This document shows positions 5,161-21,858 of a DNA stretch of 21,858 bases, one piece after another. How positions within the stretch are numbered: the stretch's first letter is position 1; every line of letters starts with the position of its first letter. Position numbers and translations under genes: made by a program. The notes under the pieces are model-generated. The model made no database searches. It had not been told where the DNA came from and worked only from the letters and a program-made list of their open reading frames with translations. This DNA comes from Chloroflexota bacterium (lineage in GTDB: Bacteria > Chloroflexota > Chloroflexia > JAMDCE01), in NCBI GenBank assembly GCA_023489135.1, contig JAMDCE010000368.1, positions 1 to 21,858 of the forward strand, given 5' to 3'.

Positions 5161-6129
5161 CTATTTAGCCAGCACGCGAGAGAGCTGATAGAGGTCCATA
5201 TTCAGCCCGCACGGTCCTGACAGGGCCGTTTCCAGGTCCAGCGGGACCACTGCCGAACCCACCAGAGCCACCATCTGCCCCGTCATTCCGTTCAACAGAC
5301 ATTCAACAGCTGCCACTCCAAAGCGCGTGGCCAGAATTCGGTCGAATGCGCTGGGAGACCCTCCGCGCTGTACGTGGCCGAGCACGGTCAAGCGAGCCTC
5401 AAAACCCTTCTCTCGCAGCGCGGAGATATGGTTCCTAAGCGTCTCCGCCTTCAGGGAAGCCCCTTCCGCCGCCACCACGATGAAATGCGGCTTCCCTCGC
5501 TCGTACGCCTCCCTCAAGCCCTGGATGACTGATTCCACCGTCGTTTCCACCTCCGGTATGAGGACGACCTCAGCCCCCGAGGCGAACCCGGCCATTAGCG
5601 CTAAATACCCGCAGTCCCTACCCATAACCTCCACAATGAAGGCGCGCTGGTGAGCGCTGGCCGTGTCCTTGATGCGGTCGATCGCCTCCAGCGCCGTGTT
5701 CAGCGCCGTGTCCGCTCCGATCGCCATTTGCGACCCCGGCAGGTCGTTGTCGATGCTCGCCGGCACTCCCACCACTCGAACTCCGGCTCGATGCAGCTCC
5801 AGCGCCCCTCGCAGAGATCCGTTACCACCGATCACCACCAGCCCCTCAACGGCCCACTTTCTCAGATTGTCGATTGACTTCGCCAACCCTTCGGGCGTCC
5901 TGAATTCCTCCGACCTCGCCGTCCCTAAGATGGTGCCGCCGTGCTGAACAATCCCACCCACCCCACGCCGACTCAGTTCCACCGATTCCCCACGCACCAA
6001 GCCTTGATAGCCTCGCTCAACGCCGATCACTTCCAAGCCTCTAGCCACCCCGACACGAGCCACCGCCCGAATGGCCGCGTTCATTCCGGGCGCATCCCCT
6101 CCGCTGGTCATCACCGCTATCTTTCTCAT
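5161..6129 (-). CDS. pfkA: ATP-type 6-phosphofructokinase
   Basis: This enzyme phosphorylates fructose 6-phosphate to fructose 1,6-bisphosphate, the committing step of glycolysis. The 322-residue protein aligns with the E. coli numbering: GGDAPGMNAAIR (10-21), catalytic SIDND with Asp127, HQR with Arg162, EVMGR with Met169, AEG with Glu222, and HVQRGGSPSAFDR near 252-264. Two substitutions stand out: GGNGS at 101-105 has Asn where classical ATP enzymes have Asp103, a Mg-ATP contact, and Ser125 replaces the usual Thr. Gly104 is kept, so this is not the PPi-type GGDD signature. The start is the ATG at 6129 with AGGAG just upstream; an earlier in-frame ATG would put that Shine-Dalgarno inside the coding region. 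It converges with the ABC ATPase gene, 29 nt apart. Confidence 0.93.
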   Translation of the reverse strand: MRKIAVMTSGGDAPGMNAAIRAVARVGVARGLEVIGVERGYQGLVRGESVELSRRGVGGIVQHGGTILGTARSEEFRTPEGLAKSIDNLRKWAVEGLVVIGGNGSLRGALELHRAGVRVVGVPASIDNDLPGSQMAIGADTALNTALEAIDRIKDTASAHQRAFIVEVMGRDCGYLALMAGFASGAEVVLIPEVETTVESVIQGLREAYERGKPHFIVVAAEGASLKAETLRNHISALREKGFEARLTVLGHVQRGGSPSAFDRILATRFGVAAVECLLNGMTGQMVALVGSAVVPLDLETALSGPCGLNMDLYQLSRVLAK

Positions 6130-6420
6130 TTCCGCTCTCCTACAATCCACGCAAGTTTACCGCATCCCGAGAAAGCCGAATTGCTCTCCCGTCACACGGG
6201 TAGTCCCCCAAGCGCTGGTCCTCGCCCACCTCCCGCACTTTCCATACCACGGCCAAACGCCTGACTGCCTAATCACTAAGTGTACCCCGCAAAACGAGCG
6301 ATGTCGCCGACATGACGATCAACATGGCGATTCACAACGCCGTTGGCTATCTCTATGGCGCCCCCACCGCCTGTTTTGCAGCTCGCCATCCGATTACAGC
6401 GATTTCTTGACGAAACATCG
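6130..6420. other. Gene-free leader of pfkA and left flank of the candidate origin
   Basis: About 290 nt with no credible ORF on either strand. On the + strand C clearly exceeds G (22 C to 11 G across 6241-6300, hand count). The pfkA promoter should lie here on the minus strand, but I find no convincing -35/-10 pair. A short perfect palindrome ATGTCG-C-CGACAT lies at 6301-6313. No tRNA or riboswitch fold is recognised. Confidence 0.6.
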
Positions 6421-6421
6421 A

Positions 6422-6464
6422 GCGCTATAGCGCCGTTGATAGCGCATATTAAGCCCAGATAGCG
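6422..6464. repeat. 12-bp palindrome plus ATAGCG direct repeats
   Basis: A perfect palindrome GCGCTATAGCGC occupies 6422-6433, and the hexamer ATAGCG recurs at 6427, 6439 and 6459, the last two as GATAGCG. The cluster ends 28 nt before the first DnaA box. The arrangement resembles short iterons or a regulator site next to a replication origin, but the binding factor is unknown and chance cannot be excluded for such short words. Confidence 0.4.
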
Positions 6465-6492
6465 ACTCCCTATTGCCTACATGACATAACTG

Positions 6493-6542
6493 TGTGGATA
6501 AGCCGGCCTCCTTTGTGGATAACTCAGCACGGTTGTGGATAA
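6493..6542 (-). promoter_or_regulatory. Cluster of three perfect DnaA boxes
   Basis: TGTGGATAA, the complement of the consensus box TTATCCACA, occurs without mismatch at 6493-6501, 6514-6522 and 6534-6542. All three share one orientation and are spaced 21 and 20 bp, close to two helical turns, so DnaA would bind on one face of the DNA. Three exact 9-mers in 50 bp is far beyond chance. Confidence 0.88.
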
Positions 6543-6684
6543 CTTCGTGGACTAACACCACCTCTCGGCTTTGCCACCTCTCTTTCATCCACTTACCACC
6601 GTTCCTTTCCCACGAATTCATCCACCTTTCACCCGAACTGTTCTCAGCACCTTGAACCTACTAATAGTGCCCATCTATCAACGT

Positions 6685-6702
6685 TTTTCCACTTTTTCCA
6701 CA
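6685..6702 (+). promoter_or_regulatory. Adjacent pair of near-consensus DnaA boxes, opposite orientation
   Basis: TTTTCCACT (6685-6693) and TTTTCCACA (6694-6702) abut directly and match TTATCCACA at 7 and 8 of 9 positions. They point the opposite way from the perfect boxes at 6493-6542. They are followed by a GC-rich spacer and the trio-like tract, which is the position expected next to an unwinding element. Confidence 0.55.
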
Positions 6703-6751
6703 TCTCCTGGCCTACCTATTACGACTACGTCTGCTATACACTCTACTCATG

Positions 6752-6760
6752 TGATACAAT
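6752..6760 (+). promoter_or_regulatory. Extended -10 promoter reading toward obgE
   Basis: TGA-TACAAT forms an extended -10 (TGn plus a 5/6 hexamer) with no good -35 at the right distance. Transcription would begin near 6767 and run through the small ORF at 6863 into obgE, giving a leader of roughly 280 nt before obgE. It lies at the right border of the candidate origin. Confidence 0.45.
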
Positions 6761-6862
6761 CACCCAAGGCTCCAGGCTTCGGTATGTCAGCAAGAAACTC
6801 GTAATAATGGATGCGGAAGCCTCCCTCTCGGAACGAGTAAGATGGCCGCGCGTGGAGGCAGT

Positions 6863-8312
<1,450 letters not shown>

Positions 8313-8394: not shown

Positions 8395-9012
8395 ATGAAG
8401 ATCGGGGTATTGGGGGGAAGTTTCGACCCTATTCACTATGGCCATCTTGTAGCCGCCCAAGAGGCCCTGATGGCGCTAAAGCTCTCGCGAGTGATTTTCG
8501 TGCCCGCGGGCCAACCGCCTCATAAGCTGCATCGCACTTTGTCCGATCCGGAGGCTCGTCTGGAAATGGTGAACATCGCCATTTCGTCTAACCCGGGTTT
8601 CGAATCCTCCAGGATCGATATCGATCGTCCTGGGCCTCATTATTCGGTAGACACGGTAAAGATCCTCCGGCACCGGCTGGGTTCGGAGGCAGAGATCTTC
8701 TTCATAGTCGGACTGGATTCCCTGCTCGATATGGGGACGTGGCGAGACCCGCAGCAGTTGCTGATGCTTTGCCGTCTGGTGGGGGTCACCAGGCCAGGGT
8801 ATCCGCGAGCGGACCTGCAGACGTTGGATGCGCGCATCCAGAGGTGGGCCGACCGCATAATCGTGCTGCCAATCCCGGAAATGAACATCTCTTCGTCTGG
8901 CTTGCGTCAAAGGGTTCGGGATGTCCGTCCGATCAAGTATCAGCTTCCGGAGGGGGTAGAGGAATACATCTTCGCCAAGGGGTTGTACAAAGATGGGGGG
9001 AGTGAGGAGTGA
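8395..9012 (+). CDS. nadD: Nicotinate-mononucleotide adenylyltransferase
   Basis: NadD transfers AMP from ATP to nicotinate mononucleotide, giving deamido-NAD in NAD biosynthesis. The 205-residue product shows the nucleotidyltransferase signature GGSFDPIHYGHL (7-18) with the HxGH-type ATP site, VFVPAGQPPHK, the substrate-contact region FFIVGLDSLLDMGTW, and the C-terminal ISSSGLRQRV motif. Length is typical of NadD. GGGGGGAGG 4 nt before the ATG fixes the start. Its TGA overlaps the ATG of the downstream lipoprotein gene (tgATG), indicating translational coupling. The usual partner rsfS is not next to it here. Confidence 0.95.
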   Translation: MKIGVLGGSFDPIHYGHLVAAQEALMALKLSRVIFVPAGQPPHKLHRTLSDPEARLEMVNIAISSNPGFESSRIDIDRPGPHYSVDTVKILRHRLGSEAEIFFIVGLDSLLDMGTWRDPQQLLMLCRLVGVTRPGYPRADLQTLDARIQRWADRIIVLPIPEMNISSSGLRQRVRDVRPIKYQLPEGVEEYIFAKGLYKDGGSEE

Positions 9013-10281: not shown

Positions 10282-10650
10282 CTATGACTTGCCCACGTAC
10301 TTGCCGACGGTTCTAAGGAGGTCGTCGATATCGAACGGCTTAGCCAGCCAGCCCGCCGCTCCTACCTGCTGTGCCCAGGACTTGGCGTCCTCCGCGGCCG
10401 ATACTATGACGACGGGCGGAACCTTGGCCGCGTATTCCTCGCGTAGACACCGCACGAATTCCCACCCATCCATCACGGGCATCTTCATGTCGAGCAGAAT
10501 CAGGGACGGCATTTCACGGCGCGTTTCGTCCAATCCGGCTTTGCCGGTTGGCGCTACTCGCACCCGGTATCCTTCCCCCGAAAGAATGATTTCCATCATT
10601 GAGACGATGTCTTGATCATCGTCCACGATCAGAACAGAGCTACCAGCCAT
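10282..10650 (-). CDS. Stand-alone receiver-domain response regulator
   Basis: This 122-residue CheY/Spo0F-like protein is a receiver domain with no output domain. The acidic pocket DDD (10-12), phospho-acceptor Asp54 in LILLDMKMPVMDG, Ser84 in the switch position (VIVSAAE) and Lys104 in AKPF are all present, so phosphorylation should be possible. No kinase is adjacent; the nearest gene on the same strand, 44 nt upstream, is an aldehyde:ferredoxin oxidoreductase, so the two may share a transcript. It converges with the lipoprotein gene, with a single base between the stop codons and no terminator visible. GGAG lies 8 nt before the ATG. Its partner kinase and output are unknown. Confidence 0.9.
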   Translation of the reverse strand: MAGSSVLIVDDDQDIVSMMEIILSGEGYRVRVAPTGKAGLDETRREMPSLILLDMKMPVMDGWEFVRCLREEYAAKVPPVVIVSAAEDAKSWAQQVGAAGWLAKPFDIDDLLRTVGKYVGKS

Positions 10651-10663
10651 TCATTATTCTCCA

Positions 10664-10709
10664 TGTATAGTATATTACACTTGCGCTCTGGAAACTATAC
10701 ACCAAGTGT
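10664..10709 (-). promoter_or_regulatory. Interleaved inverted repeats, pseudoknot-like, before the regulator gene
   Basis: On the minus strand two perfect complementary pairs interlock: ACACTTG (10703-10709) with CAAGTGT (10677-10683), and TGTATAGT (10694-10701) with ACTATACA (10664-10671). The order 1-2-1'-2' is that of an H-type RNA pseudoknot, spanning the end of the upstream oxidoreductase gene, with the last arm abutting the GGAG ribosome-binding site of the regulator. The same stretch contains TATACT and TAATAT, which could instead be -10 elements. Confidence 0.4.
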
Positions 10710-12602
10710 GAGGCTGACATCCTCCAATCCCAGCTCTATCAGCTTTCTAGCCGTGGGGCAGCCCGACTCCAGGTCCCACTCGCGCAGCAGGTAGTACTCG
10801 TCAAGCATGGAGTCGAAGTCGGCGGCCAGGCACGGAACGGAGTTTGATGGCGCAGGATCGTTGGTCAGCCTATCAGGTAGCGCATCATCGGCACGAGAAG
10901 CGCCGTGGAGTATGTTGAAGCAGCGCATCACATTGAAAGAACGCTCGCCGGCCAGCTTCACCGCGCGCTCGTCAAAGTCCATTCCCGTGGCCAGCCTGAG
11001 GGCGTGCACCACGGTGGGCCAGTACGCGGGCGCGATGACGAAGGTGCCGGACACCTTGCAAACCCCGACTGAATCTACCACCGTGGCGAAATCCTCCCCG
11101 TCCTTGACCACCAGAGCCTTGTGCCGCGGGGAGAGCGGGTCGGCCAGCTCCGGCAGCCGGTGACGCCCGTATCGATCCACCAGTGCAGAAGCTTCTCCCG
11201 TCGCATCGACGGTTGGCAGCGCCTTCAAGTGGTCGGCTCCACGATTCGAGGTAGCGTAAGCCAGGGCGAGAGAGCGCTGAGCGCGTGGGTCTCGGCCGGG
11301 CAGCTCCAGACCCTTGACGTGAAGGGCAGAGCTTTCCGCCTCAGCCCCCAGCGCTCGGGCAGCCCGCTTTACCCCTTCGGCCAGGATGTCGCCGAGGCCT
11401 TGTCGCAGGGCTATCCTTTCCAGCAAAGTCAACGCGGCGGCGTAATTCCCCCAGGTCAGCTCCAGGCCGTCGAGGTCGCTCTTGAAGATTTGCCCCCCCT
11501 CGTACAGCTCCATAACCATGGCTATTACCCTGCCCGCGGATGTGATATCGAGGCCCAGCTCGTCGCAGGTATGGCAGGCCTTCACGATGGCGCCGAGATT
11601 ATCGTTCCAGATCCCGCTGCCGAAAGCGGCGATGCCCTCGAAGCCGAGACCGCTTACCTGTGCGCCGGCAAACTTCCCTTCCTTGACGACGAGCACCTTG
11701 CTACAGGATACCGAGCAGCCGTGGCAGGGGTTATCAGTTAAGGAACACTTCCGGAGAACGGCATTTTCGTCGATGTCTTCTATGAAAGGGACCGAGCCAA
11801 ACTGGGAGTTTCTGGCCGAAAGGCGCCCAAGACGATTAGCCGAGGAGAGGGAATAGAGATTCCCGAACGCGGCGACCGAATCGAACGACTCATCCTGGGC
11901 GATCAGCGGGCGCAGGCCGCGGACGAACGCATCGAAATCCTCGGGGTGGGCTACCTCCACGCGCCCGGTTCCGCGCACGACGACGGCTTTGAGGTTCTTG
12001 GAACCCATGACGGCGCCCATGCCGCACCTGGACGCGCTATGGCCGCAGGAGAACTGCACGCTGGCAAAGCGCACCAATCTCTCGCCGGCCGGCCCGATGC
12101 AGGCCACCGACGCCTTACTATCGCCCAGCTCCGCCAGGAGTAGCCTTTCGGTGGATTCGGTCCCCTGTCCCCAGAGGTGATCGGCCCGGCGAAGCTCCAC
12201 CTGGCCGTCCTTTATCAACAGATACATCGGGGAATTTGCCCTTCCCTCCAGCACCAGCGCATCGTACCCGGCGGCCTTTAGCTCGGAGGCGAAGAAGCCT
12301 CCGGCGTTGGAATCGCCGTACATACCGGTCAGCGGCGACTTAGAAACGAGGGCAAGCCGATTGGAGCCGGGCCATGATGTCCCATTCAGGGGACCGGTGG
12401 CCATGATGAGCTTGTTGGCCGGGTCCAAGGGGTCGACGTGGGTTCCCACCTCGTCCCAAAGGAGCCTGGCTCCAAGGCCATTGCCGCCGAGGTACATCTC
12501 GACTAGATCGGGCTCGAGCTCCTCGAGGTAGGTGTGACCGGAAGTGAGATCGACGCGCAGGGTTCTACCCGCGCAGCTATGGTGGCGAAAGTTCCTTTGC
12601 AT
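10695..12602 (-). CDS. Tungsten-dependent aldehyde:ferredoxin oxidoreductase family protein
   Basis: Members of this family oxidise aldehydes or related compounds using a tungsten (or molybdenum) bis-pterin and a [4Fe-4S] cluster, passing electrons to ferredoxin in the cytoplasm. The 635-residue protein shows GRTLRVDLTSG at the N-terminus, LGGNGLGARLLWDE, the pterin-site RCGMGAVMGSKNLKA (193-207), and cluster ligands in a CX2CX3C group (Cys293, 296, 300) plus Cys515 in GVCKVSG. GLELPGRDPRAQ and SNRGADHLKA are also family hallmarks. The start is the ATG at 12602: a strong promoter places transcription initiation on that base, whereas the longer TTG-initiated frame would begin upstream of the transcript. 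The real substrate cannot be told from sequence; the product could be an AOR, FOR or uncharacterised subtype. Confidence 0.93.
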   Translation of the reverse strand: MQRNFRHHSCAGRTLRVDLTSGHTYLEELEPDLVEMYLGGNGLGARLLWDEVGTHVDPLDPANKLIMATGPLNGTSWPGSNRLALVSKSPLTGMYGDSNAGGFFASELKAAGYDALVLEGRANSPMYLLIKDGQVELRRADHLWGQGTESTERLLLAELGDSKASVACIGPAGERLVRFASVQFSCGHSASRCGMGAVMGSKNLKAVVVRGTGRVEVAHPEDFDAFVRGLRPLIAQDESFDSVAAFGNLYSLSSANRLGRLSARNSQFGSVPFIEDIDENAVLRKCSLTDNPCHGCSVSCSKVLVVKEGKFAGAQVSGLGFEGIAAFGSGIWNDNLGAIVKACHTCDELGLDITSAGRVIAMVMELYEGGQIFKSDLDGLELTWGNYAAALTLLERIALRQGLGDILAEGVKRAARALGAEAESSALHVKGLELPGRDPRAQRSLALAYATSNRGADHLKALPTVDATGEASALVDRYGRHRLPELADPLSPRHKALVVKDGEDFATVVDSVGVCKVSGTFVIAPAYWPTVVHALRLATGMDFDERAVKLAGERSFNVMRCFNILHGASRADDALPDRLTNDPAPSNSVPCLAADFDSMLDEYYLLREWDLESGCPTARKLIELGLEDVSLTLGV

Positions 12603-12608
12603 GCGGGC

Positions 12609-12637
12609 ATTATAACAGTGAAAACCGTGCAAGGCAA
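12609..12637 (-). promoter_or_regulatory. Promoter giving a leaderless oxidoreductase mRNA
   Basis: On the minus strand TTGCCT (12637-12632) and a perfect TATAAT (12614-12609) are separated by exactly 17 nt. Six bases follow before the A of the ATG at 12602, which is the expected +1. The transcript would therefore start at the start codon with no ribosome-binding site. The -35 overlaps the T-rich tail of the terminator of the preceding gene. Confidence 0.7.
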
Positions 12638-12669
12638 AAACCGGAGGAGTGTTCTCCCCCGGTTTTTGC
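12634..12669 (-). terminator. Intrinsic terminator after the secreted helical-repeat gene
   Basis: Arms of 16 nt (12634-12649 and 12654-12669) pair with one mismatch around a 4-nt loop. Read on the minus strand, a GC-rich stem CCGGGGGAG/CTCCTCCGG is followed by TTTTT. It lies 28 nt downstream of the stop at 12697. Because the arms also carry A and T runs, it could act in both directions. Confidence 0.85.
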
Positions 12670-12696
12670 GTGGTGATACAGGTATATTATTGCGTT

Positions 12697-13383
12697 TTAC
12701 TGGACTGGGGCTTGCGCCTTCGGTACCCTCCAGCCGCTTCGCGGGGCGAATCCGTTGGGGCGGAACCCGTTGCAGGGGGCCTGCTTGATTTTGTTAAGGA
12801 TGTTGTCCGCCTGCTGCTGCGTCAGCTTGCCGTCCTTGACCGCCTGATCCACCTTCTGCTGGACTATCTGGACGACGGCGTCGTGCAGCTGGGCATTCGT
12901 GATCTTATTGTCGTCGAGGAACTTCTTTATGTTTTTATCCGACTGAAGCTCCTGCTTCACCTGGTCCACCGTCTTTCCGGTGAGGTTGGCCAGCGCCTGC
13001 ACCGTCACGTCTCGGCCCAATACGCCGAAATTGGTTCCTGGTCGCTTGCCTTTGAACCCGAAGTGGCCCTTGCCGATGAACGGCATCAGGTTTCCGTTCG
13101 GCGTGCGCTGCTTGATCTTGTCGGCCTGATCCTTGGTGATCTTCCCGTTCTGGACGGCTTCGTCCAGTATCTGGTCCCGGGTGGTGTCGATGGCCTTGGT
13201 GAGGTTGTCCACGCTGATGCCTAGATTCCCGGCCAGCTTGCCGAGGAAGTTCTGGTACATCGTGTTGGCGCCGGTCTTGGCCTCAGGCGTAGGCGTCTGA
13301 GCCACTGCCGTGCCCGCGGCCAGCGAGCCCACGATGACCAGCGCCGCGCCAATTCCGATCAGCAGCTTCTTTCTTTCGAGCAT
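12697..13383 (-). CDS. Secreted helical-repeat protein (DUF2680-like segments)
   Basis: The 228-residue product has a clear signal peptide (KK, then LLIGIGAALVIVGSLAAGTAVA, cleavage probably before QTPTPE). The mature part contains two helical units of similar design: LAGNLGISVDNLTKAI with DEAVQNGKITKDQADKIKQR, and LANLTGKTVDQVKQEL with DQAVKDGKLTQQQADNILNK. The xxGKIT/LTxxQADxI pattern resembles DUF2680-type small exported proteins, a tentative match from memory. A Gly/Lys/Phe-rich linker (GKGHFGFKGKRPG) lies between. GAGGAGGAAGGG precedes the ATG. It has its own predicted promoter carrying the same 18-base motif as htrA and is closed by a strong terminator, so it is a single-gene unit, possibly part of an envelope response. 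Function unknown. Confidence 0.85.
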   Translation of the reverse strand: MLERKKLLIGIGAALVIVGSLAAGTAVAQTPTPEAKTGANTMYQNFLGKLAGNLGISVDNLTKAIDTTRDQILDEAVQNGKITKDQADKIKQRTPNGNLMPFIGKGHFGFKGKRPGTNFGVLGRDVTVQALANLTGKTVDQVKQELQSDKNIKKFLDDNKITNAQLHDAVVQIVQQKVDQAVKDGKLTQQQADNILNKIKQAPCNGFRPNGFAPRSGWRVPKAQAPVQ

Positions 13384-13447
13384 TTGCCCTTCCTCCTCGT
13401 CGTTCGACTGATGCTGTGGAAAACATCCGCCTCAGTTTTCAGAGGGA

Positions 13448-13503
13448 AGTATACCGTCCAGATATTAAGCCGCAATTGGCGAGTCGTTAAAAGTTTGTAA
13501 AAT
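13448..13503 (-). promoter_or_regulatory. Direct-repeat operator and promoter of the secreted helical-repeat gene
   Basis: Minus-strand ATTTTACAAACTTTTAAC (13503-13486) is TTTTAC-N5-TTTAAC, an 11-bp-period direct repeat. Exactly 32 nt downstream lies the -10 TATACT (13453-13448); transcription would start near 13441, leaving a leader of about 58 nt. The motif matches the one upstream of htrA at 15 of 18 bases with identical spacing to the -10. A second -10-like TAATAT (13467-13462), with a -35 overlapping the motif, is an alternative. Confidence 0.55.
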
Positions 13504-13582
13504 CGAACTGCCATCGAGTCTATGTGGGACTGCCACGATTATACAAATTACTGGAATATAGTGGACCCCAATAGAACCGGGG

Positions 13583-16003
13583 CTATGGCACGTCCATCTC
13601 GCCGATGATGACTCGATCTCCCGGAGGCTCCCCGCCTTCCGAAACGTCCAGCCTCTTTCCGGTCGCGCGCTGATACATGCCAACCTCCACCTGGTAGCGC
13701 CCGGGAGGGGCATCCTGGTCGATCGGCACGTCATACCGGTCGACTATGGTTTCGTTCTCGCGCCAGGTGGTGGTGGGGGACTGGCCATCGGCGGGAAGGG
13801 AGTCTTTTTGGCCCCAGATGAAGTTGTTTCGCCTGGGGTTAGGCTTCTCCCCGAGCAGGTGGACGAAGACGGTGTAGCTGCTGGAGATCTGCTGAGATCG
13901 CTGCCAGTACAGGGTGATGTGGACTGGGTCACCCGGAGCGAGTTTCTCGCCGGCGCCCGGCTGCAGGTCATACCCGAGCAGCGCAGCTTCTTCGCCGAAC
14001 TTGATCCGGCGCTCGTGCTGAATGTCGAAGGACTGCGGCAAGGGCAGGAAGGCCGTCGCCGAAGGCCTTACCTGGACCACCTCCAGCTTGCCCAGATCGA
14101 TCGTGCGCGCCACCGCTTTTGTGGTGCGGTCGGAAGCCCTCAGCTGCCAGTGATAGGTGCCGCTGGGCGTTGAGGCCGGGATAACAAGGCTGAGCTGCTC
14201 CCGAATGGGTTGATCGACTGTCGGAGATTGAGGTCTTTCTAGTCCTCGACTGACTATGGGCTGGTCGCCGGCCGATAGCGCCAGGGAGTAATCGTATTGC
14301 CTCTGGCCCGCGTCCTGCCAGTAAATCGCCACATGGGCGGTCTCGCCCGAGGATGCCCTGCTAAGCCACTGATCGTAGCCCAGCAAGGTGATGCCGTCGG
14401 GCAGCGTCTCCTGCAGTGGGAAAGCCGGCTGGACCTTGGTCAAGCGTACGACCCTTTCGGGCTTGGCCTGGCGACTGCCAAACAAGGTAAGCCGGGATTC
14501 GAAGTACTCCTGGTCGATCAGCGGTTGGGCCCTGTCCGTAAGCCAGGTTAGAACGTGGCGCTGGGGGTCGGTATCCATAGCTTTTACGCTCGAAACGAGC
14601 CAGACGGCTCGATGCCTTTCCAGCAGCGGCGATAAGGTCTTCGCCGCCCAGTCGGCGGTCACATTCTGGGCATAGGGAACGGGGTACCACGGTAAGTCGC
14701 CGGTGTAATGATAGAGAAAAATGGGCCAATCGGTGTCCGGATAGAGGACGATGGCATCCGACGGCTCGGCGTAGGCGTCGATCGTGGCGGCGATGGCCTG
14801 GTAGTCATCTTCCCGGAAGCGCTGTTCGTAGTAGCTGTTGGTAAAGAACAGCCCGATGCCCGCTACGAGCGCCAGCAGAGCGGGTCCCGCAATTGCGATC
14901 CTGCTCTTCAAGAGCGCCAGGCCCCACGCTAAGGCGAGCAGGAACGCCGGCGAAAGGAACAGGAAGTATCGCGAGTGTACGAAGGGCGTATAGAAAACGG
15001 ACGTGGGCAGAGAAAGGGCGTAGATCAGGGCCGGGGCAATGGTCAGATACAGCAGGAGCAACAATCCCAGGTGCCTGCTCGGGCGCTTCCACAGCCCGCC
15101 GACGATGCCCAGAGCCACCAGAAGCAGTGGGAGAGGCAGCAGATAGGCGTAGTCGCTTATGTTGAGATCGATGCCCAGCGACACCACCGAGGCGTAAACC
15201 TGCCAGAAGAGCGCGAAGCCCAGCGTCGGGACCTCGGAGGAAGGCCTTTGTCCCGCGTGAGTTTTCATCAGGTAGAGCCACGGGGAATACGCCGTTAGAA
15301 CGATCGCCTGAATCAGGATCCATTTCATCAGCCAGGTCAGGGTCTTGCGGCGCCCCAGCAGGGGGAAGAGGATCAAGAGCACCGCCAGCACGTTCTGAGC
15401 TACTATCGCCAGGGAGTTGAGGTACAGCGTATACAGAGCCGCGATGCTCGTGATCGCGTACAGGACCCAGTGCGACCGTCTATCATCGCGTAGCGCCGAG
15501 AGGAGGAAGTACAGTGAAGCGATGCCCAGCAGGACCGCCAGGGAGTACATCCGAATCTCTTGCGACCACCAGACGTGGAAGCGACTTACGGCCAGCAACA
15601 GGGCAGCGGCAACGGCAGGGAACGGCCCCAGGAACTTTCGGCCCAGTCGGTAGAGGAGCGCCACGCTGGCTACGCCGGCCGCCACGGACACGTACCGCAA
15701 GGCGAACTCACTATCGCCCGCCATCTTTCCCCAGAAATGCAAGACTAAGTAGTAAAAGGGAGGATGTACCTCTCTAGCCTGATACAAAACGATATCGAGA
15801 GCGCTATTGCGGGAGGTCCACGCCGAGATGGCCTCATCCCACCAGACGCTCTTGTCCCCGAGGAGGTGTATGCGCAGAGCGAAGGCCAGGAGCAGGATAA
15901 ATGAGGTTAGGGCAAGGGACCATCCCTTGCCCTCCAGCATTTTGCTTAGATTCGCGTGGCGCGCTTTGCTGAGCGCGCCGAGTAACGGGGCGGACATGCG
16001 CAT
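13583..16003 (-). CDS. GT-C (GT39/ArnT-like) membrane glycosyltransferase
   Basis: This 806-residue polytopic protein belongs to the dolichyl/polyprenyl-phosphate-sugar-dependent PMT/ArnT-like group, which moves a sugar from a lipid carrier to an acceptor outside the cytoplasmic membrane. After a first membrane helix (about 29-48) comes the catalytic loop VWWDEAIS with Asp56-Glu57, then HPPFYYLVLHFW and WSQEIRMYSL, all usual for the family. About ten further hydrophobic segments reach residue 400. The rest is a long extracytoplasmic region with two beta-sandwich-like stretches of similar wording (GITLLGYDQW...VAIYWQ and AALLGYDLQ...ITLYWQ). The start is the ATG at 16003 with a GGGGG-type site; ATG 15997 is possible. 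It lies 27 nt after htrA on the same strand and is probably co-transcribed. Acceptor and sugar are unknown. Confidence 0.88.
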   Translation of the reverse strand: MRMSAPLLGALSKARHANLSKMLEGKGWSLALTSFILLLAFALRIHLLGDKSVWWDEAISAWTSRNSALDIVLYQAREVHPPFYYLVLHFWGKMAGDSEFALRYVSVAAGVASVALLYRLGRKFLGPFPAVAAALLLAVSRFHVWWSQEIRMYSLAVLLGIASLYFLLSALRDDRRSHWVLYAITSIAALYTLYLNSLAIVAQNVLAVLLILFPLLGRRKTLTWLMKWILIQAIVLTAYSPWLYLMKTHAGQRPSSEVPTLGFALFWQVYASVVSLGIDLNISDYAYLLPLPLLLVALGIVGGLWKRPSRHLGLLLLLYLTIAPALIYALSLPTSVFYTPFVHSRYFLFLSPAFLLALAWGLALLKSRIAIAGPALLALVAGIGLFFTNSYYEQRFREDDYQAIAATIDAYAEPSDAIVLYPDTDWPIFLYHYTGDLPWYPVPYAQNVTADWAAKTLSPLLERHRAVWLVSSVKAMDTDPQRHVLTWLTDRAQPLIDQEYFESRLTLFGSRQAKPERVVRLTKVQPAFPLQETLPDGITLLGYDQWLSRASSGETAHVAIYWQDAGQRQYDYSLALSAGDQPIVSRGLERPQSPTVDQPIREQLSLVIPASTPSGTYHWQLRASDRTTKAVARTIDLGKLEVVQVRPSATAFLPLPQSFDIQHERRIKFGEEAALLGYDLQPGAGEKLAPGDPVHITLYWQRSQQISSSYTVFVHLLGEKPNPRRNNFIWGQKDSLPADGQSPTTTWRENETIVDRYDVPIDQDAPPGRYQVEVGMYQRATGKRLDVSEGGEPPGDRVIIGEMDVP

Positions 16004-16030
16004 CCGCCCCCTACCGTTCAGCGTGAGGCA

Positions 16031-17197
16031 TTACTGTTTCTGCCACTTGCCAAGCTTGACCTCGATGGTCTTGTCTTCTTTTCCTCGAATGACGCTCAGC
16101 TTGACGGTGTCTCCCACCTTCTTAGTATCGAGGTAGGCGATAATGTCCTCGACCTTAGCTACCGACACCTCGTCGATCGCGGTGATAATGTCACCTCCTT
16201 TGCCCGGCTTCCCGTGGGGCGAGGCGTCGGAAGCAACCGCTCCTTTCACTCCGGCGTCCTGAGCCGGGCTGTCCGGCACCACCGAGGCCACGTAAACGCC
16301 CTTTTCCACCGGTAGCTCCAGATCCTTGGCCAGTTGCGCGCCTATGGCAATGCCCGAAACGCCCAGCATGGGGTGCTTCACCTCGCCGCCCTTCATCAAA
16401 TCGGGGAGGAAGTTCTTAACGGTGTTCACCGGAACGGCGAAGCCAATCCCCACCGAGCCGCGCACGGGGCTCTCGATAGCGGTGGTGATTCCCACCACCT
16501 CGCCACTGGAGTTGAGCAGCGGTCCGCCGGAGTTGCCGGGATTGATGGCCGCGTCGGTCTGAATCATCTCCAGGATAGGCCGACCGCTATCGCCCGTGTA
16601 GGTTCGCCCCACCGAACTGAACACGCCGACGGTCACCGTCCTTTGGAGACCGAAGGGATTACCAATGGCGATGGCCAACCCACCGGGGCGGACCTGGCTG
16701 GAATCGCCCAACGTTGCCACCGTCAATTTGCTGGGGTCCACGTCGACCTTTATCAGGGCGAGGTCGTTTACCTTATCGTAACCCACCGTCTGGGCCCTGG
16801 CCACGGTGCCATCGGACAACGTCACGTTCACCCTGTCGGCTCCGTCCACGACGTGATTGTTAGTAAGAATGTGGCCCTCTTTGTCGATGATGAAGCCAGA
16901 TCCCGAACCCCCCTGGGGGATACTGTCGAAGAACCCACTGGATCGACTCGAAGTGCTGGCTATGAAAACCACGGCCGGGCTCATCTTCTCGTACACTGAG
17001 GCGATGACGTTTTCATCGAAGAATGCCCCTTGACTTCCGGCAGTTGTAGCCAGCGGACCGCTGGCCTGCACCGCGCGGGCGGGATTTACTGGTGGAGCGG
17101 ATGAAGGCTGAACTTGCAGGTAGCCTATCACTATGCCTGCCGCCAGAAGCGCGGTTACCACCACCATTGCTGCGTTTCTTGCCACCGATTTGAACAT
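16031..17197 (-). CDS. HtrA/DegP-like serine protease with PDZ domain
   Basis: HtrA proteases degrade or refold damaged envelope proteins. The 388-residue product has one N-terminal membrane anchor (AAMVVVTALLAAGIVIGYL), a linker, a trypsin-like domain with the triad His115 (TNNHVVDG), Asp145 (NDLALIKVD) and Ser223 (GNSGGPL), and one C-terminal PDZ domain (about 277-385, LGVSGIAI, VVPDSPAQDAGVKG, GDIITAIDE). All catalytic residues are present, so it should act as a membrane-tethered protease on the outer face. The ATG at 17197 is chosen because GGAGGGAG is just upstream; an earlier in-frame ATG lacks a site. It follows the PhoB/PhoR-like pair and carries a promoter with a direct-repeat operator, which fits control by that pair. 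It probably leads into the glycosyltransferase gene 27 nt downstream. Confidence 0.94.
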   Translation of the reverse strand: MFKSVARNAAMVVVTALLAAGIVIGYLQVQPSSAPPVNPARAVQASGPLATTAGSQGAFFDENVIASVYEKMSPAVVFIASTSSRSSGFFDSIPQGGSGSGFIIDKEGHILTNNHVVDGADRVNVTLSDGTVARAQTVGYDKVNDLALIKVDVDPSKLTVATLGDSSQVRPGGLAIAIGNPFGLQRTVTVGVFSSVGRTYTGDSGRPILEMIQTDAAINPGNSGGPLLNSSGEVVGITTAIESPVRGSVGIGFAVPVNTVKNFLPDLMKGGEVKHPMLGVSGIAIGAQLAKDLELPVEKGVYVASVVPDSPAQDAGVKGAVASDASPHGKPGKGGDIITAIDEVSVAKVEDIIAYLDTKKVGDTVKLSVIRGKEDKTIEVKLGKWQKQ

Positions 17198-17224
17198 GGT
17201 TCTCCCTCCGATCATTGGATCGAT

Positions 17225-17261
17225 ATCGCCTGGCCTCTCCCCGTTGAGAGGCCACGGCGAT
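17225..17261 (-). other. Stable hairpin in the htrA leader
   Basis: TGGCCTCTC (17231-17239) and GAGAGGCCA (17246-17254) form a perfect 9-bp stem with a 6-nt loop, extended by ATCGCC/GGCGAT (17225-17230 and 17256-17261) across one bulged base, about 15 pairs in all. It lies about 28 nt upstream of the htrA start codon in the predicted leader. There is no U-run on the htrA strand, so it is more likely a leader structure or processing/stability element than a terminator. Confidence 0.55.
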
Positions 17262-17341
17262 TTGTCTTAGGATTGGCCCTTCCCAACCCCAGGCATCCCG
17301 AGCGCGGGACACACCTACGCCTTCGTAGTTTCTTCGTCATA

Positions 17342-17397
17342 ATTGTATGAAACGATTCCTAATGTCAGATGAAATAACGGTTAAAAGATTGTTAAAC
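17342..17397 (-). promoter_or_regulatory. Direct-repeat operator and promoter of htrA
   Basis: Minus-strand GTTTAACAATCTTTTAAC (17397-17380) is TTTAAC-N5-TTTAAC, an 11-bp-period direct repeat starting 1 nt after the kinase stop codon. Exactly 32 nt downstream is the -10 TACAAT (17347-17342), with CTGACA as a sub-optimally spaced -35 (15 nt). Transcription would start near 17335, so the motif sits at about -45 to -62, a usual place for an OmpR/PhoB-class activator. Confidence 0.6.
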
Positions 17398-17398
17398 T

Positions 17399-18862
17399 TC
17401 AACCCGCCGCCGCGTTTCCAGCCGGGAGTGCCACCACGAATTCGGTTCCTGAAGCGGCATCGCTCACCACCGATACGGACCCTCCGTGCGCCTGGACGAT
17501 CTCCTTTACGATGGCGAGGCCCAGGCCGGTGCCTTCGCTCGCCCTCGCCGGGGACACTTTTGCCTGGTAAAACCGGTCGAACACCTTGTCCCGCTCGTCG
17601 GCCGGGATCACCGATCCGGTGTTGTGCACCGCGATGGTCGCCTCCTGGTGTCTGAGGGCGTCGGCACCCGGACGCCTGTTAAGCCCAAGCCGGACGCTGA
17701 TTGTGCCGCCGTCCGGTGTGTATTTTATCGCGTTTTCGAGGAGATTGCTGAAAACGTTCTCCAGGCGGCGAGCGTCGCCGTCGATCACAATGCACCCGTC
17801 AACCTGCGTGGAGATCGCTACGCCGGAATCATTGGCCTGGCGTCTGATCTGCCTCACGCAGTCGCGCAACAAGTCGGTCAGGTCCACCGGTTGCACGTCC
17901 AGCTTCGACTGGCCCGATTCTATCCTCGACAGGTCGAGCAGGTCGTCCACCAGCCGGCGCATTCGATTGGCCTCGTCGTTGATGATGCGGCCCGCCTCTT
18001 CGTAACCTTGCCGGTCCTTGACGGCTCCGTCAACCAGCGCCTGAGAGAAGCCCTGAATCGAGGTCAGCGGGGTTTTCAACTCGTGAGAGGCATTGGCCAG
18101 GAACTCCCGCAGGGTCCGGTTGGTGGTGCTGACTTGCCGAGCCATGTTGTTAAACGAAGACGCCAGCAAGCCCAATTCATCGCGGCTCTTCACGGAAATG
18201 AACTGGTCGTAGTGCCCCTGAGCCATCTCCTCCGAGGCGCGGGCGATCTGAAGGATCGGCTTGGAAATCGATCGAGACAAAAGGAACGCGACCAGTATGG
18301 AAGCTGCCAGCGATACGAGGGCGGCGATCGAGAACTGCGGAGCCAGCTCCAGCCAGGCCGAGGTGATCTGCTCTTGAGGCACCGCCAGCACCACGGAGTA
18401 CGAGGGAATACGGCTCAGAAACCTTTCAGACTGCAGGGAGCTCGTCCTGGGGGGGATCGTAACCAGCACCAGCCCGTTGTGGGTCCGGTAAACCTTGACC
18501 GGGGGCGAGGGTCGCCGGAAGATAAGATCGTAGCTCTGTGGGTCAACCCCCGCGCCGCCAAGCTCTCCCTGAGTATCCTCGACGATTTTGCCCTGGGAGT
18601 CAACCAGGAGGATGCGAACGCCGGTTTCCCGAGCTTGGTCCTGCAAGAACGAGCCTATCTGGCTCGGCGAGGCCCCAACACGCTCCAGTACGCTCACCTG
18701 ATAAGTAATCGGCAAAGCCATATCGGCGAGCTGATTGAGCCTGATTTGCCGCTGATAGTCCCGCAGCAAGAGCACCGCGCCCGAGCTAGAGACCATCAGG
18801 GACAGGAATATGACCAGGACAAAAGCAGCAACCAACCTGGTCCGGAGACTACGAAACCTCAT
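17399..18862 (-). CDS. PhoR-like membrane sensor histidine kinase
   Basis: The 487-residue kinase should sense an envelope signal and phosphorylate the adjacent regulator. Layout: membrane helix 1 (about 9-33), a 150-residue extracytoplasmic sensor part, membrane helix 2 (about 178-197), HAMP (198-250), HisKA with phospho-acceptor His260 in [19 protein letters not shown], and HATPase_c with the N box [10 protein letters not shown] (373-382), G1 [10 protein letters not shown] box VFDRFYQ and G2 [11 protein letters not shown] (444-454). Oddity: Asn414 replaces the usual Asp of the G1 box, which contacts adenine; Asn variants of this box occur in other kinases. It overlaps the regulator gene by 14 nt, so the pair is translationally coupled, and the htrA operator follows its stop directly. 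Confidence 0.94.
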
Positions 18863-19556
18863 CCTGATCCTTCACGCCCTTCGAGACAGTCAGTTTGTAG
18901 CCTACACCCCAGACGGTCTTGATTTGAGCGCTGGAGTTGGCCATTTTCTCCCTGAGCCAGGTCACGTGTACGTCGACGGTTCGGGAATCCCCGAGGAAAT
19001 CGTATCCCCAAACGGAGCTGATCAGCTTGTCGCGGGTAAAGACGACCTCCGGATTGAGGGCGAGCGTCGCCAGCAAGTCGAATTCCTTGGCCCTCAGTTG
19101 AACCAGGTTTCCTTCGACGCTTACATCGCGCCGGTCCAGGTCAATCACCGTGTTACCGAGCACGACCTGTCTTTGCGGTTTCGTTCCCACCTGGTAGCGA
19201 CGCAGCACCGCCTTCACGCGGGCAACCAGCTCTCGCGGGTTGAACGGCTTGGTGATGTAGTCGTCGGCTCCCAGCTCGAGACCGACGATCTTATCCACGT
19301 CGTCGTTGCGGGCCGTCAGGATAATGATCGGAACGTCGCCGTTTTTGCGAAGCTGGCGGCACACCTCCCAGCCATCCAGCTCAGGCATCATCAGGTCCAG
19401 GACTACCAGGGCAGGGTGGATGCGGCTGGCCTTATCCAGCGCGTCTTTCCCGTTGTAGGCCGCTTCGACCTCGTAACCCTCGTTGCTGAGATACAGCTTG
19501 GCCAGTTGAACTATGTTCTTCTCGTCATCTACCACCAGAATCGGTTTGGAATCCAT
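18849..19556 (-). CDS. OmpR/PhoB-family response regulator
   Basis: The 235-residue regulator has a receiver domain (about 1-120) with Asp10/Asp11, phospho-acceptor Asp54 in LVVLDLMMPELDG, Thr81 and Lys103 in TKPF, then a winged-helix DNA-binding domain (about 135-230, ending VDVHVTWLREK and VWGVGYKL). Regulators of this class bind direct repeats with a period of about 11 bp, matching the TTTWAC-N5-TTTAAC motifs before htrA and the secreted helical-repeat gene; that link is an inference. The start is the ATG at 19556; a GTG four codons earlier is possible and neither has a strong ribosome-binding site. It begins the regulator-kinase operon. Confidence 0.95.
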   Translation of the reverse strand: MDSKPILVVDDEKNIVQLAKLYLSNEGYEVEAAYNGKDALDKASRIHPALVVLDLMMPELDGWEVCRQLRKNGDVPIIILTARNDDVDKIVGLELGADDYITKPFNPRELVARVKAVLRRYQVGTKPQRQVVLGNTVIDLDRRDVSVEGNLVQLRAKEFDLLATLALNPEVVFTRDKLISSVWGYDFLGDSRTVDVHVTWLREKMANSSAQIKTVWGVGYKLTVSKGVKDQDEVS

Positions 19557-19594
19557 TTTCGCCAGCACTTTCTATTGAAGTAAGCATACAGTCG

Positions 19595-19652
19595 ATTATG
19601 CCCTGTATCTATAGCTATTATCTAGTATAAGTCATCCACCTTAACCTTTGCA
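19595..19652 (-). promoter_or_regulatory. AT-rich promoter region of the regulator-kinase operon
   Basis: The 187-nt gap upstream of the regulator holds several -10-like words on the minus strand: TATACT (19629-19624), GATAAT (19622-19617) and CATAAT (19600-19595). None has a good -35, so one cannot be chosen. A perfect 12-bp palindrome CCTGGTACCAGG sits farther upstream at 19670-19681 and might be an operator. No copy of the htrA-type direct repeat is seen here, which gives no support for autoregulation through it. Confidence 0.35.
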
Positions 19653-19743
19653 CGGAGCCTCTCTGCTGCCCTGGTACCAGGTATTGGATGCCTCCGGTTT
19701 CGCGCCTGCCCCGGCGAGTGCGGATGGAGAAAGCATAGCCCTG

Positions 19744-20607
19744 CTACTGCCCCCTTGTCATATGGGACGCTTCCTGCGGCAGAATCTGGATGCCGGTGGC
19801 CACCACCACCCCGTCGGCGCCGCGAGGGCCGTTGACGGCGACGTAGGCTCCTTCGGTTATATCCTTGAAGCTGCCCGAGTCGCTCTTCAAAATCACGGTC
19901 TGGTCTGAAAGAGTCACCTTCACGGACGAGCGGTTCTGCCCCTGCGAACCTCCTTGCGACCCTCCTGGGGTTATGGTAACCACGTTGTCGGCCACTTCCT
20001 GGACGGTGCCAACGGCTACCTCGGCGCCGTTCTGGGACGCGCCGTTACGCCCGCCCGGTGACGCTCCGGCGCGACTGTTCTCTGGTGTGCCGTTTCCCCC
20101 GTTCTGCGATGCTCCGCCGCGGCCGAATTGTGAGGCCATGCCGCTGCCCGATTGAAGAGATTGCCCTCGTTGAGCCTGTTGCCCCCCGACACCTTCGGCG
20201 CCGATCTGCACCGAAGCCGCGGAAAGCGTCCCATCTTCGGCCGCCTGGCCACGGACCGTGATTCTTTGTCCTTTTTGAATATCGGTTGGTGCCCCCGCAA
20301 CTTGCTTCCTGATCTGGGTCTGTTCGTTGGTGCGTACGGTCACAGGGTATGAGGAGTCGCTAACGGTGACCGTGAACTCGTTGTCTCCAACTTTCTCCAC
20401 CGGGCCCATTGTAGGTCGGACGCCCGCTGCCTGTGAAGTCGGTCCCCCGCCGGATAGACCGGAGGCTGCGCCGGAGCCCCCGTTTATAGGTGCTGCCGCG
20501 AGCGCAGCGGGAGACTTGGAGGATGACTGGTAGGCCCCTAAGGCCGCGCCAATCCCCAGACCCACCACCACGGTTCCCGCTAACATCAGATTAAAGCCTA
20601 TCTTCAT
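19744..20607 (-). CDS. Exported DUF5666-like protein
   Basis: The 287-residue product begins with a membrane or signal segment (LMLAGTVVVGLGIGAALGAY), then a low-complexity Ala/Gly/Ser linker. Two beta-rich units of DUF5666 type follow: residues about 65-135 (GPVEKVGDNEFTVTV, TQIRKQ, IQKGQRITVRGQ) and about 197-280 (GTVQEVADNVVTITPGG, TVILKSDSG, ITEGAYVAVNGP). They are separated by a long Gly/Gln/Asn/Ser-rich disordered stretch with near-repeats of GASQNG. GGAGGGGGGAG precedes the ATG. It lies 16 nt after the MacB-like permease gene, so the two form an operon; it may be an accessory exported subunit of that export system, but no function is established. Confidence 0.85.
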   Translation of the reverse strand: MKIGFNLMLAGTVVVGLGIGAALGAYQSSSKSPAALAAAPINGGSGAASGLSGGGPTSQAAGVRPTMGPVEKVGDNEFTVTVSDSSYPVTVRTNEQTQIRKQVAGAPTDIQKGQRITVRGQAAEDGTLSAASVQIGAEGVGGQQAQRGQSLQSGSGMASQFGRGGASQNGGNGTPENSRAGASPGGRNGASQNGAEVAVGTVQEVADNVVTITPGGSQGGSQGQNRSSVKVTLSDQTVILKSDSGSFKDITEGAYVAVNGPRGADGVVVATGIQILPQEASHMTRGQ

Positions 20608-20623
20608 TGTCTCCCCCCTCCAC

Positions 20624-21858
20624 TTATTCGTAGCGCAGTGCTTCGATCGGGTTCAGGCTGGCCGCCCTGGTGGCCGGATAGATGCCGAAGAAGATACCGA
20701 TGGCTGCCGAAACCCCCACCGCCAGTCCCACCGCGTCGGGCGAGACCACCGTGTGCAAGGGTTGTCCTCCCAGATTGACCCTACTGATCGCCTCCGAGAT
20801 GCCGGTCCCCACCAGGATGCCCAGGGCACCTCCCAACAGGCTTACCACCGTCGCTTCGATCAAGAACTGGACCAGAATGTCTTTCCTCTTGGCGCCGACG
20901 GCCTTACGGATGCCGATCTCCCGCGTGCGCTCGGTGACCGAGACCAGCATGATGTTCATGATGCCTATTCCCCCAACCACGAGGGATATGCCGGCAATGG
21001 CTCCGAGCAGAAGGGTCATCACGCCGGTGACCTGGTTGGCCACCGACAGAAGATCGTCTTGACTGCGAATGGTGAAGTCGTCCTGGACGGCCCGGTGCCT
21101 CTGGCGCAGAAGATCTCCGATCTGCTGGACGGCATCGTTCCTCAACGACTGGGAGGCTACCTGGACGTATATCGTGTTAACGTTGGGGGCTCCTCTAGCC
21201 GTGCGCTGCCGATTCAGCTTCTGGAGCTGGGTGGTCAGCGGCACGAGCACGATATCGTCCTGGTTGCCCATAGACTGGGCCCCCTTGCTCTCCATCACTC
21301 CTATCACGCGAAAGTTGAGCCGCCCGATCCTGACTTGTTGGCCGATCGGGTCGGCGTCCGGGAACAGGGTCGAAGCGACGTTGGTGCCCAGCACCGCCAC
21401 GTTGGACCGGGCGTCGAGATACTGTTTGGTGATGAATTCGCCTTCCGCCACGTGCCAGTTCCGCACGTCTTCGTAAGTTGGGGTGACGCCGGTTATGCGG
21501 GTCATGGTGTTTTGCGGGCCGGCGATCACCTGCGAAAAGGCCATACCTTCCGGCGCGACGGCCGCGGCAGCCGGGACGTTTAATGGGTCGGCGATGGCGT
21601 CGGCATCCTCCAGGGTGAGAGTGGGAGCCGTTCCCTGCTGCTGGCGCACACCGCCTTGCTGTTGAGCGCCGGGAGTGACGAAGAGCAGGTTGGTTCCCAT
21701 TCCCTGAATCTGCGAGGTGACCATGGCCTGCGCCCCCTTGCCCACCGACATAAGGGCGATGACCGCTCCTACGCCGATGATCATGCCCAGCATCGTCAGC
21801 GCCGTGCGCAGCTTGTTGGCCGCCAGGGCTCTCAAAGCAACACGCAAGCTTTCCGTCT
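20624..21858 (-). CDS. MacB/FtsX-type ABC transporter permease, 5' end cut off
   Basis: This is a four-helix MacB-like permease of a mechanotransmitting ABC system that, with an ATPase and often a periplasmic adaptor, exports compounds or lipoproteins. The frame runs to the window edge (ESLRVALRALAANKLRTALT), so only a few N-terminal residues are missing. TM1 (TALTMLGMIIGVGAVIAL) is followed by a MacB periplasmic core domain of about 220 residues and an FtsX domain with three helices, including GIRKAVGAKRKDILVQFLIEA and the C-terminal PATRAASLNPIEALRYE, all canonical. The ATPase gene is expected just outside the window. It is followed after 16 nt by the DUF5666 gene. Substrate unknown. Confidence 0.94.
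   Translation of the reverse strand, partial: TESLRVALRALAANKLRTALTMLGMIIGVGAVIALMSVGKGAQAMVTSQIQGMGTNLLFVTPGAQQQGGVRQQQGTAPTLTLEDADAIADPLNVPAAAAVAPEGMAFSQVIAGPQNTMTRITGVTPTYEDVRNWHVAEGEFITKQYLDARSNVAVLGTNVASTLFPDADPIGQQVRIGRLNFRVIGVMESKGAQSMGNQDDIVLVPLTTQLQKLNRQRTARGAPNVNTIYVQVASQSLRNDAVQQIGDLLRQRHRAVQDDFTIRSQDDLLSVANQVTGVMTLLLGAIAGISLVVGGIGIMNIMLVSVTERTREIGIRKAVGAKRKDILVQFLIEATVVSLLGGALGILVGTGISEAISRVNLGGQPLHTVVSPDAVGLAVGVSAAIGIFFGIYPATRAASLNPIEALRYE

Follow-up and report, generated by a model that had tools for sequence, protein, structure and literature searches.

The window, that is, the whole stretch of 21,858 nucleotides analysed here, comes from an uncultured Chloroflexota bacterium. 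As stated in the original prediction, pfkA (minus strand) and obgE (plus strand) diverge from a region of DnaA boxes, and NCBIfam matches back these gene names. The genes and the intergenic features are the following.

5161-6150, minus strand: pfkA, the left neighbour, an ORF matching NCBIfam PRK03202 and PFKA_ATP above cut-off
6484-6489, plus strand: ACATAA, picked out by reading the alignment, immediately left of the array and common to several relatives
6493-6501, minus strand: DnaA box R1, a perfect TTATCCACA (box scan), invariant in 10 of 10 aligned loci
6514-6522, minus strand: DnaA box R2, a perfect TTATCCACA (box scan), nearly invariant in the alignment
6534-6542, minus strand: DnaA box R3, a perfect TTATCCACA (box scan), nearly invariant in the alignment
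6584-6633, plus strand: two weak boxes, 33 bp apart, within copies of a 17-bp repeat (starts at 6584 and 6617), in a variable C-rich middle part
6685-6693, plus strand: proximal box TTTTCCACT, read from the sequence
6694-6702, plus strand: proximal box TTTTCCACA, adjoining the trios, its start 201 bp from that of R1, as in genomes G001 and G002
6703-6715, plus strand: 13-bp spacer between proximal box and trio tract
6716-6736, minus strand (the presumed bound strand): DnaA-trio tract, plus strand CTA TTA CGA CTA CGT CTG CTA
6752-6760, plus strand: TGATACAAT, an extended -10-like element and presumed obgE promoter, recognised by eye, its position conserved in the alignment
7044-8312, plus strand: obgE, the right neighbour, matching NCBIfam PRK12297 above cut-off
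8395-9012, plus strand: nadD, matching NCBIfam PRK00071 and TIGR00482 above cut-off

The three perfect boxes, announced as sharing one orientation at 20-21 bp spacing, were found at 6493, 6514 and 6534 on the minus strand, spaced by 21 and then 20 bp, and the two weak boxes were located in the 17-bp repeat. The proximal boxes TTTTCCACT and TTTTCCACA, described as an adjacent opposed pair, are adjacent but not mutually opposed: both lie on the plus strand as a direct tandem, opposite in orientation to the three-box array only. At up to one mismatch the window contains 7 boxes against 2.04 +/- 1.42 expected, a number reached in 0 of 100 shuffles, and the cluster lies in non-coding DNA and exceeds chance, as required of a bacterial oriC. 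Neither of the two genes by which a dnaA-dnaN-type origin is marked was recognised in the window ORFs scanned.

Most of the G-rich obgE leader is occupied by a 57-aa ORF (6863-7036, plus strand) preceded by a GGAGG ribosome-binding-like site. It stops 7 bp before obgE and has no Pfam match, and the sequences printed just 5' of obgE in G001 and G002 are too short for it. A consensus promoter scan, which requires a -35 element as well, reports no promoter for the TGATACAAT region. Further right, the likely genes in 10282-21847 are all oriented toward the candidate origin, hence head-on to the expected fork; domains identified in part of them are a response regulator, AFOR, PMT_2, trypsin/PDZ and DUF5666, while a kinase, a second regulator and a MacB-like permease are named by appearance alone.

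The trinucleotide tract and its middle bases

A DnaA-trio-like element had also been predicted, and a tract of three-nucleotide repeats with a periodicity beyond that of shuffles is indeed present at 6716-6736. The window thus combines a DnaA box with a trinucleotide tract of the correct polarity no more than 16 bp away, the arrangement that characterizes a basal unwinding system (BUS), its spacer being 13 bp. The published search rule, as excerpted from PMC8287927, calls for at least 3 consecutive trios with a middle adenine; this strict rule rejects the window tract and accepts 8 of 37 loci, the site in G008 being doubtful. The register of the repeats was set without using the middle base, at the window locus and in ten genomes, with manual choice of the box that precedes each tract. 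It scores 119, compared with 76.0 +/- 3.4 in shuffles, the highest of 2000 being 87. On the trio strand, the middle base is A or C in 64 of the 77 repeats at these 11 loci (39 A, 25 C), against a null of 33.3 +/- 3.9 (64 was reached in 0 of 2000 shuffles), and the lag-3 identity of the tracts is 0.370 versus 0.275 +/- 0.019 in shuffles. An alternative register, for which the first C[TG][AG] served as anchor, was misplaced in the window, G013, G018 and G045, returned nothing in G371, and was replaced.

According to excerpts of PMC10721633, strands separate at a rate close to that with adenine when the first trio has cytosine as its middle base, G, T and U being worse, and the amino group of the middle base contacts Asn187 of DnaA. 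The pocket residues Glu183, Asn187 and Arg202 are kept in 14 of the 15 DnaAs examined, the 15th (G054) being unreadable by the residue pattern used. The A-or-C middle bases fit this cytosine-for-adenine replacement (PMC10721633, in the same excerpts), and the middle-C trios are presumably functional in the window group. If so, they would be the natural counterpart of the laboratory cytosine result (PMC10721633), and would also match the deviant trios suspected in the excerpted part of PMC8287927. No consistent link emerged between the middle base of the trios and the I or V at DnaA position 190, as G003 combines C-rich trios with I, and the idea was dropped.

Conservation and base skew among the Chloroflexota

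A search with the window ObgE retrieved 80 loci from species genomes (the best 80 of 121), the titles of which comprise 70 Chloroflexota, 8 Atribacterota/Atribacteria, 1 Bacillota and 1 other. Two of them (L001 and L002) have perfect boxes upstream of obgE with the identical 21/20 spacing, and boxes occur in several more. In the window and its two nearest genomes, G001 and G002, the box starts are identical at 0, +21, +41 and +201 bp. When ten loci are aligned (window, G001, G002, G016, G014, G004, G005, G013, G003 and G034), a box, a trinucleotide tract and a TGnTAnAAT element follow to the right of the array, the last being poor in G034. G018 carries related but weaker boxes and a tract, located between dnaA and obgE. 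The array and tract thus stand directly upstream of obgE in 10 of 16 genomes (the nine aligned relatives and G018), the 16 being those read among the 24 obgE-bearing genomes of the class of G002, a conservation at the same place that is expected of an oriC. Among the remaining six, G031 and G032 exhibit degenerate boxes and a tract-like stretch, G006 and G011 have boxes 1.3-1.4 kb from obgE (a single one in G011), and G019 and G025 have no boxes upstream of obgE.

Two perfect boxes 8-35 bp apart are present in 7 of 12 genomes searched, at a single place in each of the seven, and in G002 the only such pairs of the genome are those at obgE. In G027, which is more distant within the class, ~2.3 kb separate the box pair from dnaA and obgE sits on a different contig; in G024 a pair is on a contig devoid of both dnaA and obgE. 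Since the G027 pair is near dnaA, the presence of boxes at obgE is a rule of the nearer relatives and not of the whole class. Conservation of the boxes between pfkA and obgE in related genomes was proposed as a check of the prediction, and close relatives do keep the boxes at obgE. The refuting situation, boxes missing here with a cluster near dnaA, is not what these relatives show; the box pair of G027 is near dnaA.

Across the phylum, the triple-box array was detected in 35 of 400 Chloroflexota genomes (36 matches), many of which are mutually related and do not represent independent events, while the reversed-pattern control returned 0. All 36 matches measure 49 bp, though 46-50 were permitted, and the spacing is 21/20 in 33 of the 35 loci examined and 20/21 in two. 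The array is linked to obgE in seven genomes (G001, G002, G004, G013, G014, G016 and G034); the loci from the remaining 28 genomes, most of them 3 kb long, yielded no ObgE and a single DnaA, that of G054. As judged by eye, 20 of 22 printed loci exhibit a tandem pair of type TTTCCACnnTnTCCACA followed by a C[TG]A-type tract, weakly so in G054, the two without this tandem and tract being G376 and G283. Taken together, the box shuffles, the reversed-pattern control and the trio shuffles rule out chance or base composition as the source of the pattern.

The surroundings of these arrays are diverse. An SRP RNA gene (RF00169) lies within ~1.2 kb of the array in 9 of 20 loci searched (L178, L179, L182-L186, L188 and L193), and among representatives the array adjoins an OsmC-like gene in G210 and bifunctional-nuclease-domain genes in G384 and G313. 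Beside the G384 array, a 745-aa protein (L212, 7405-9639, minus strand) contains two phosphofructokinase stretches (PF00365). A shared pfkA/origin neighbourhood was not retained, since pfkA in G384 is on the opposite side of the origin, probably a coincidence. In the 11.3-Mb genome G356, the 3049-bp locus L197 (contig G356:C1) contains 39 perfect DnaA boxes within 3 kb, 15 on one strand and 24 on the other, an outsized array that may be an origin or a titration site.

Base skew provides a less uniform picture. The counts given in the original prediction, 88 C and 26 G on the plus strand in 6541-6780 followed by 55 C and 81 G in 6781-7020, are exact, this C-to-G switch is the largest in the window in a scan at 20-bp steps, and the cumulative skew over the window is minimal at 6773. 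With the flanking genes excised, the window skew is +0.030 on the left and -0.011 on the right, which is against the origin reading. The local minimum thus holds, the window skew beyond the first kilobases goes the other way, and the skew argument as a whole is weakly supported. Skew is higher on the right than on the left in 13 of 14 contigs, the exception being G004, and, once the flanks are excised (1.9 kb left, 3 kb right), in 10 of 11 contigs (G001, G034 and G006 dropped as too short), the exception being the window. In G002:C1 the cumulative skew reaches its contig-wide minimum away from the boxes, and so does the cumulative skew over 60 kb of G016:C4, where a local minimum is present. 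Whole-chromosome skew was abandoned as a decisive test. In the 2.38-Mb contig of G166, which may be incomplete, skew is negative in 4 of 5 stretches left of the array and positive in 14 of 15 to its right, changing sign near the array; in the 3.0-Mb contig of G054 it is positive on both sides, with a sampled negative-to-positive change at 2.4-2.6 Mb; and G009, sampled at 20 places, has no clear pattern. Because one of these agrees, one disagrees and one is patternless, skew is used here as weak evidence only.

The position of dnaA relative to the boxes

Of the 29 genomes in the class of G002, 24 yielded obgE, 27 dnaA and 25 dnaN. obgE and dnaA share a contig in 4 of the 23 genomes having both: they are adjacent, with the origin between them, in G001, G016 and G018, and ~4.3 kb apart in G011. 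In all 24 class genomes having both dnaN and dnaA, the two genes never share a contig, though the contigs may be fragments. Outside the class, G007 and G008 carry dnaA to the left of the boxes, and G009 carries it to the left of obgE, with no perfect box in the 21 kb around obgE. The left neighbour of the origin is dnaA in G001, a flavoprotein with fumarate-reductase domains in G002 and pfkA in the window, and a PucR-type regulator in G004, G005, G013 and G014 (Pfam was run on G004, the other three being judged from similar sequence). The obgE-nadD neighbourhood, considered unusual in the original prediction, is so in that dnaA is absent from the left, but less odd given the order dnaA-oriC-obgE-nadD of G001 and the outgroups.

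On the ObgE tree, the window joins G001 and G002 (98/99) and G001 joins G002 (97/92). The label "dnaA on left" is unclustered on this tree, which includes one locus of unexamined dnaA status (L077): it requires 5 changes, and 242 of 500 shuffles are as low, hence the tree is by itself no proof of the direction of change. We infer that the origin stayed with obgE-nadD and that dnaA, formerly its left neighbour, is no longer adjacent in the window lineage. As dnaA adjoins the boxes in G001 and in the outgroups, the simplest reading of these fragmentary assemblies is that dnaA left twice in the clade of the window, G001 and G002. The G002 DnaA is 73% identical to that of G001 and its gene is on a contig separate from the boxes; an origin that remained at dnaA in G002 after loss of linkage was rejected, as none of the searched-for boxes occurs on this 59-kb contig.

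The neighbourhood may nevertheless be explained otherwise, with dnaA just past the left edge of the window, displaced by an insertion of a few genes, a scenario compatible with the origin reading. The visible left flank is only ~6.4 kb, and G011 offers a precedent with its ~4.3 kb between dnaA and obgE. G002, however, has no dnaA in the 10.8 kb to the left of its boxes, its dnaA being on another contig, though the ends of these two contigs may join. Such a displacement is thus conceivable but rather doubtful. Whichever way dnaA was separated, close relatives share the box spacing with and without an adjacent dnaA, and constitute a natural test of the importance of dnaA linkage.

The origin reading and its comparison with known systems

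The anatomy of the locus, its spacing, its conservation and the uniqueness of the box pair in relatives support the candidate origin originally predicted. Judged from sequence, 6484-6760 is very probably the chromosomal oriC of this bacterium, within which DnaA binding, looping, unwinding, helicase loading and initiation may be envisaged as follows. DnaA would bind the three high-affinity boxes, spaced by about two turns of the helix, as well as the tandem boxes ~150-200 bp away; by looping, the distal array would assist in bringing DnaA to the proximal pair, as proposed for the distal and proximal boxes of B. subtilis incC. From the proximal pair a DnaA oligomer would then be loaded on the trio strand (6716-6736), and opening would spread toward the obgE -10 element, where the helicase would be loaded. 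R3 and the proximal box are 160 bp apart in each of three diverged genomes (window, G001 and G002), a distance compatible with such a loop.

Boxes of this kind might also form a DnaA-binding regulatory or titration site, setting the time of obgE transcription or of the supply of DnaA while the chromosome starts replicating at another place, a role that we take to resemble those of datA and DARS. The boxes are upstream of the presumed obgE promoter, initiation is a prediction from sequence, and the skew is weak. However, the box pair and trio tract form an unwinding module that titration does not need, and in G002 no other cluster was found at dnaA. Furthermore, the array adjoins quite different genes in other Chloroflexota, and hence does not serve obgE as such. 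Altogether, a regulatory or titration site appears improbable. That the region is the origin of a plasmid, a secondary chromosome or another mobile replicon is hardly credible: the window is a fragment, but the region adjoins the core genes obgE and nadD, as in relatives, and no plasmid-type initiator gene was recognised among the ORFs scanned.

The chromosomal origin convincingly found here is an ordinary kind of object in a variant architecture, the interest of which lies in its separation from dnaA and its relaxed trios. Many Chloroflexota may share one blueprint, made of three boxes at 21/20 bp, a proximal pair and trios with an amino base (A or C) in the middle, that was moved between neighbourhoods (dnaA-obgE, pucR-obgE, pfkA-obgE and SRP RNA) independently of dnaA, a generalization for which the chances seem even. 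If the amino-base rule is true, GC-rich lineages could run a GC-rich unwinding element (CGA repeats) with an unchanged DnaA pocket. The locus provides a base-level origin prediction for uncultured Chloroflexota, the sampled contigs of which are weak in skew, together with a searchable 49-bp signature. No paper on an obgE-linked Chloroflexota origin was among the matches listed in a search that excluded subscription papers and DoriC entries.

In B. subtilis, incC requires distal and proximal box sets, the proximal pair loading DnaA onto the trios (PMC6669920, in excerpt). The window resembles this oriC and its BUS, as far as excerpts of PMC6669920, PMC8287927 and PMC10721633 describe them, in having a distal box set and a proximal pair beside DnaA-trios, a spacer of ~10-13 bp, trios on the complementary strand and conserved DnaA pocket residues. 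It differs from them, by the same excerpts, in having three distal boxes, spaced 21/20 bp and facing the other way from the proximal pair, in the A or C at the middle of the trios of its group, B. subtilis having A throughout, and in its gene setting, with obgE downstream, dnaA not adjacent and dnaN not among the ORFs scanned. Like the E. coli origin described in the excerpted part of PMC6669920, the window oriC is located beside other genes, with dnaA elsewhere. Unlike the E. coli case so described, a close relative, G001, retains dnaA beside an origin with identical box starts, and the separation from dnaA can therefore be placed on the tree.
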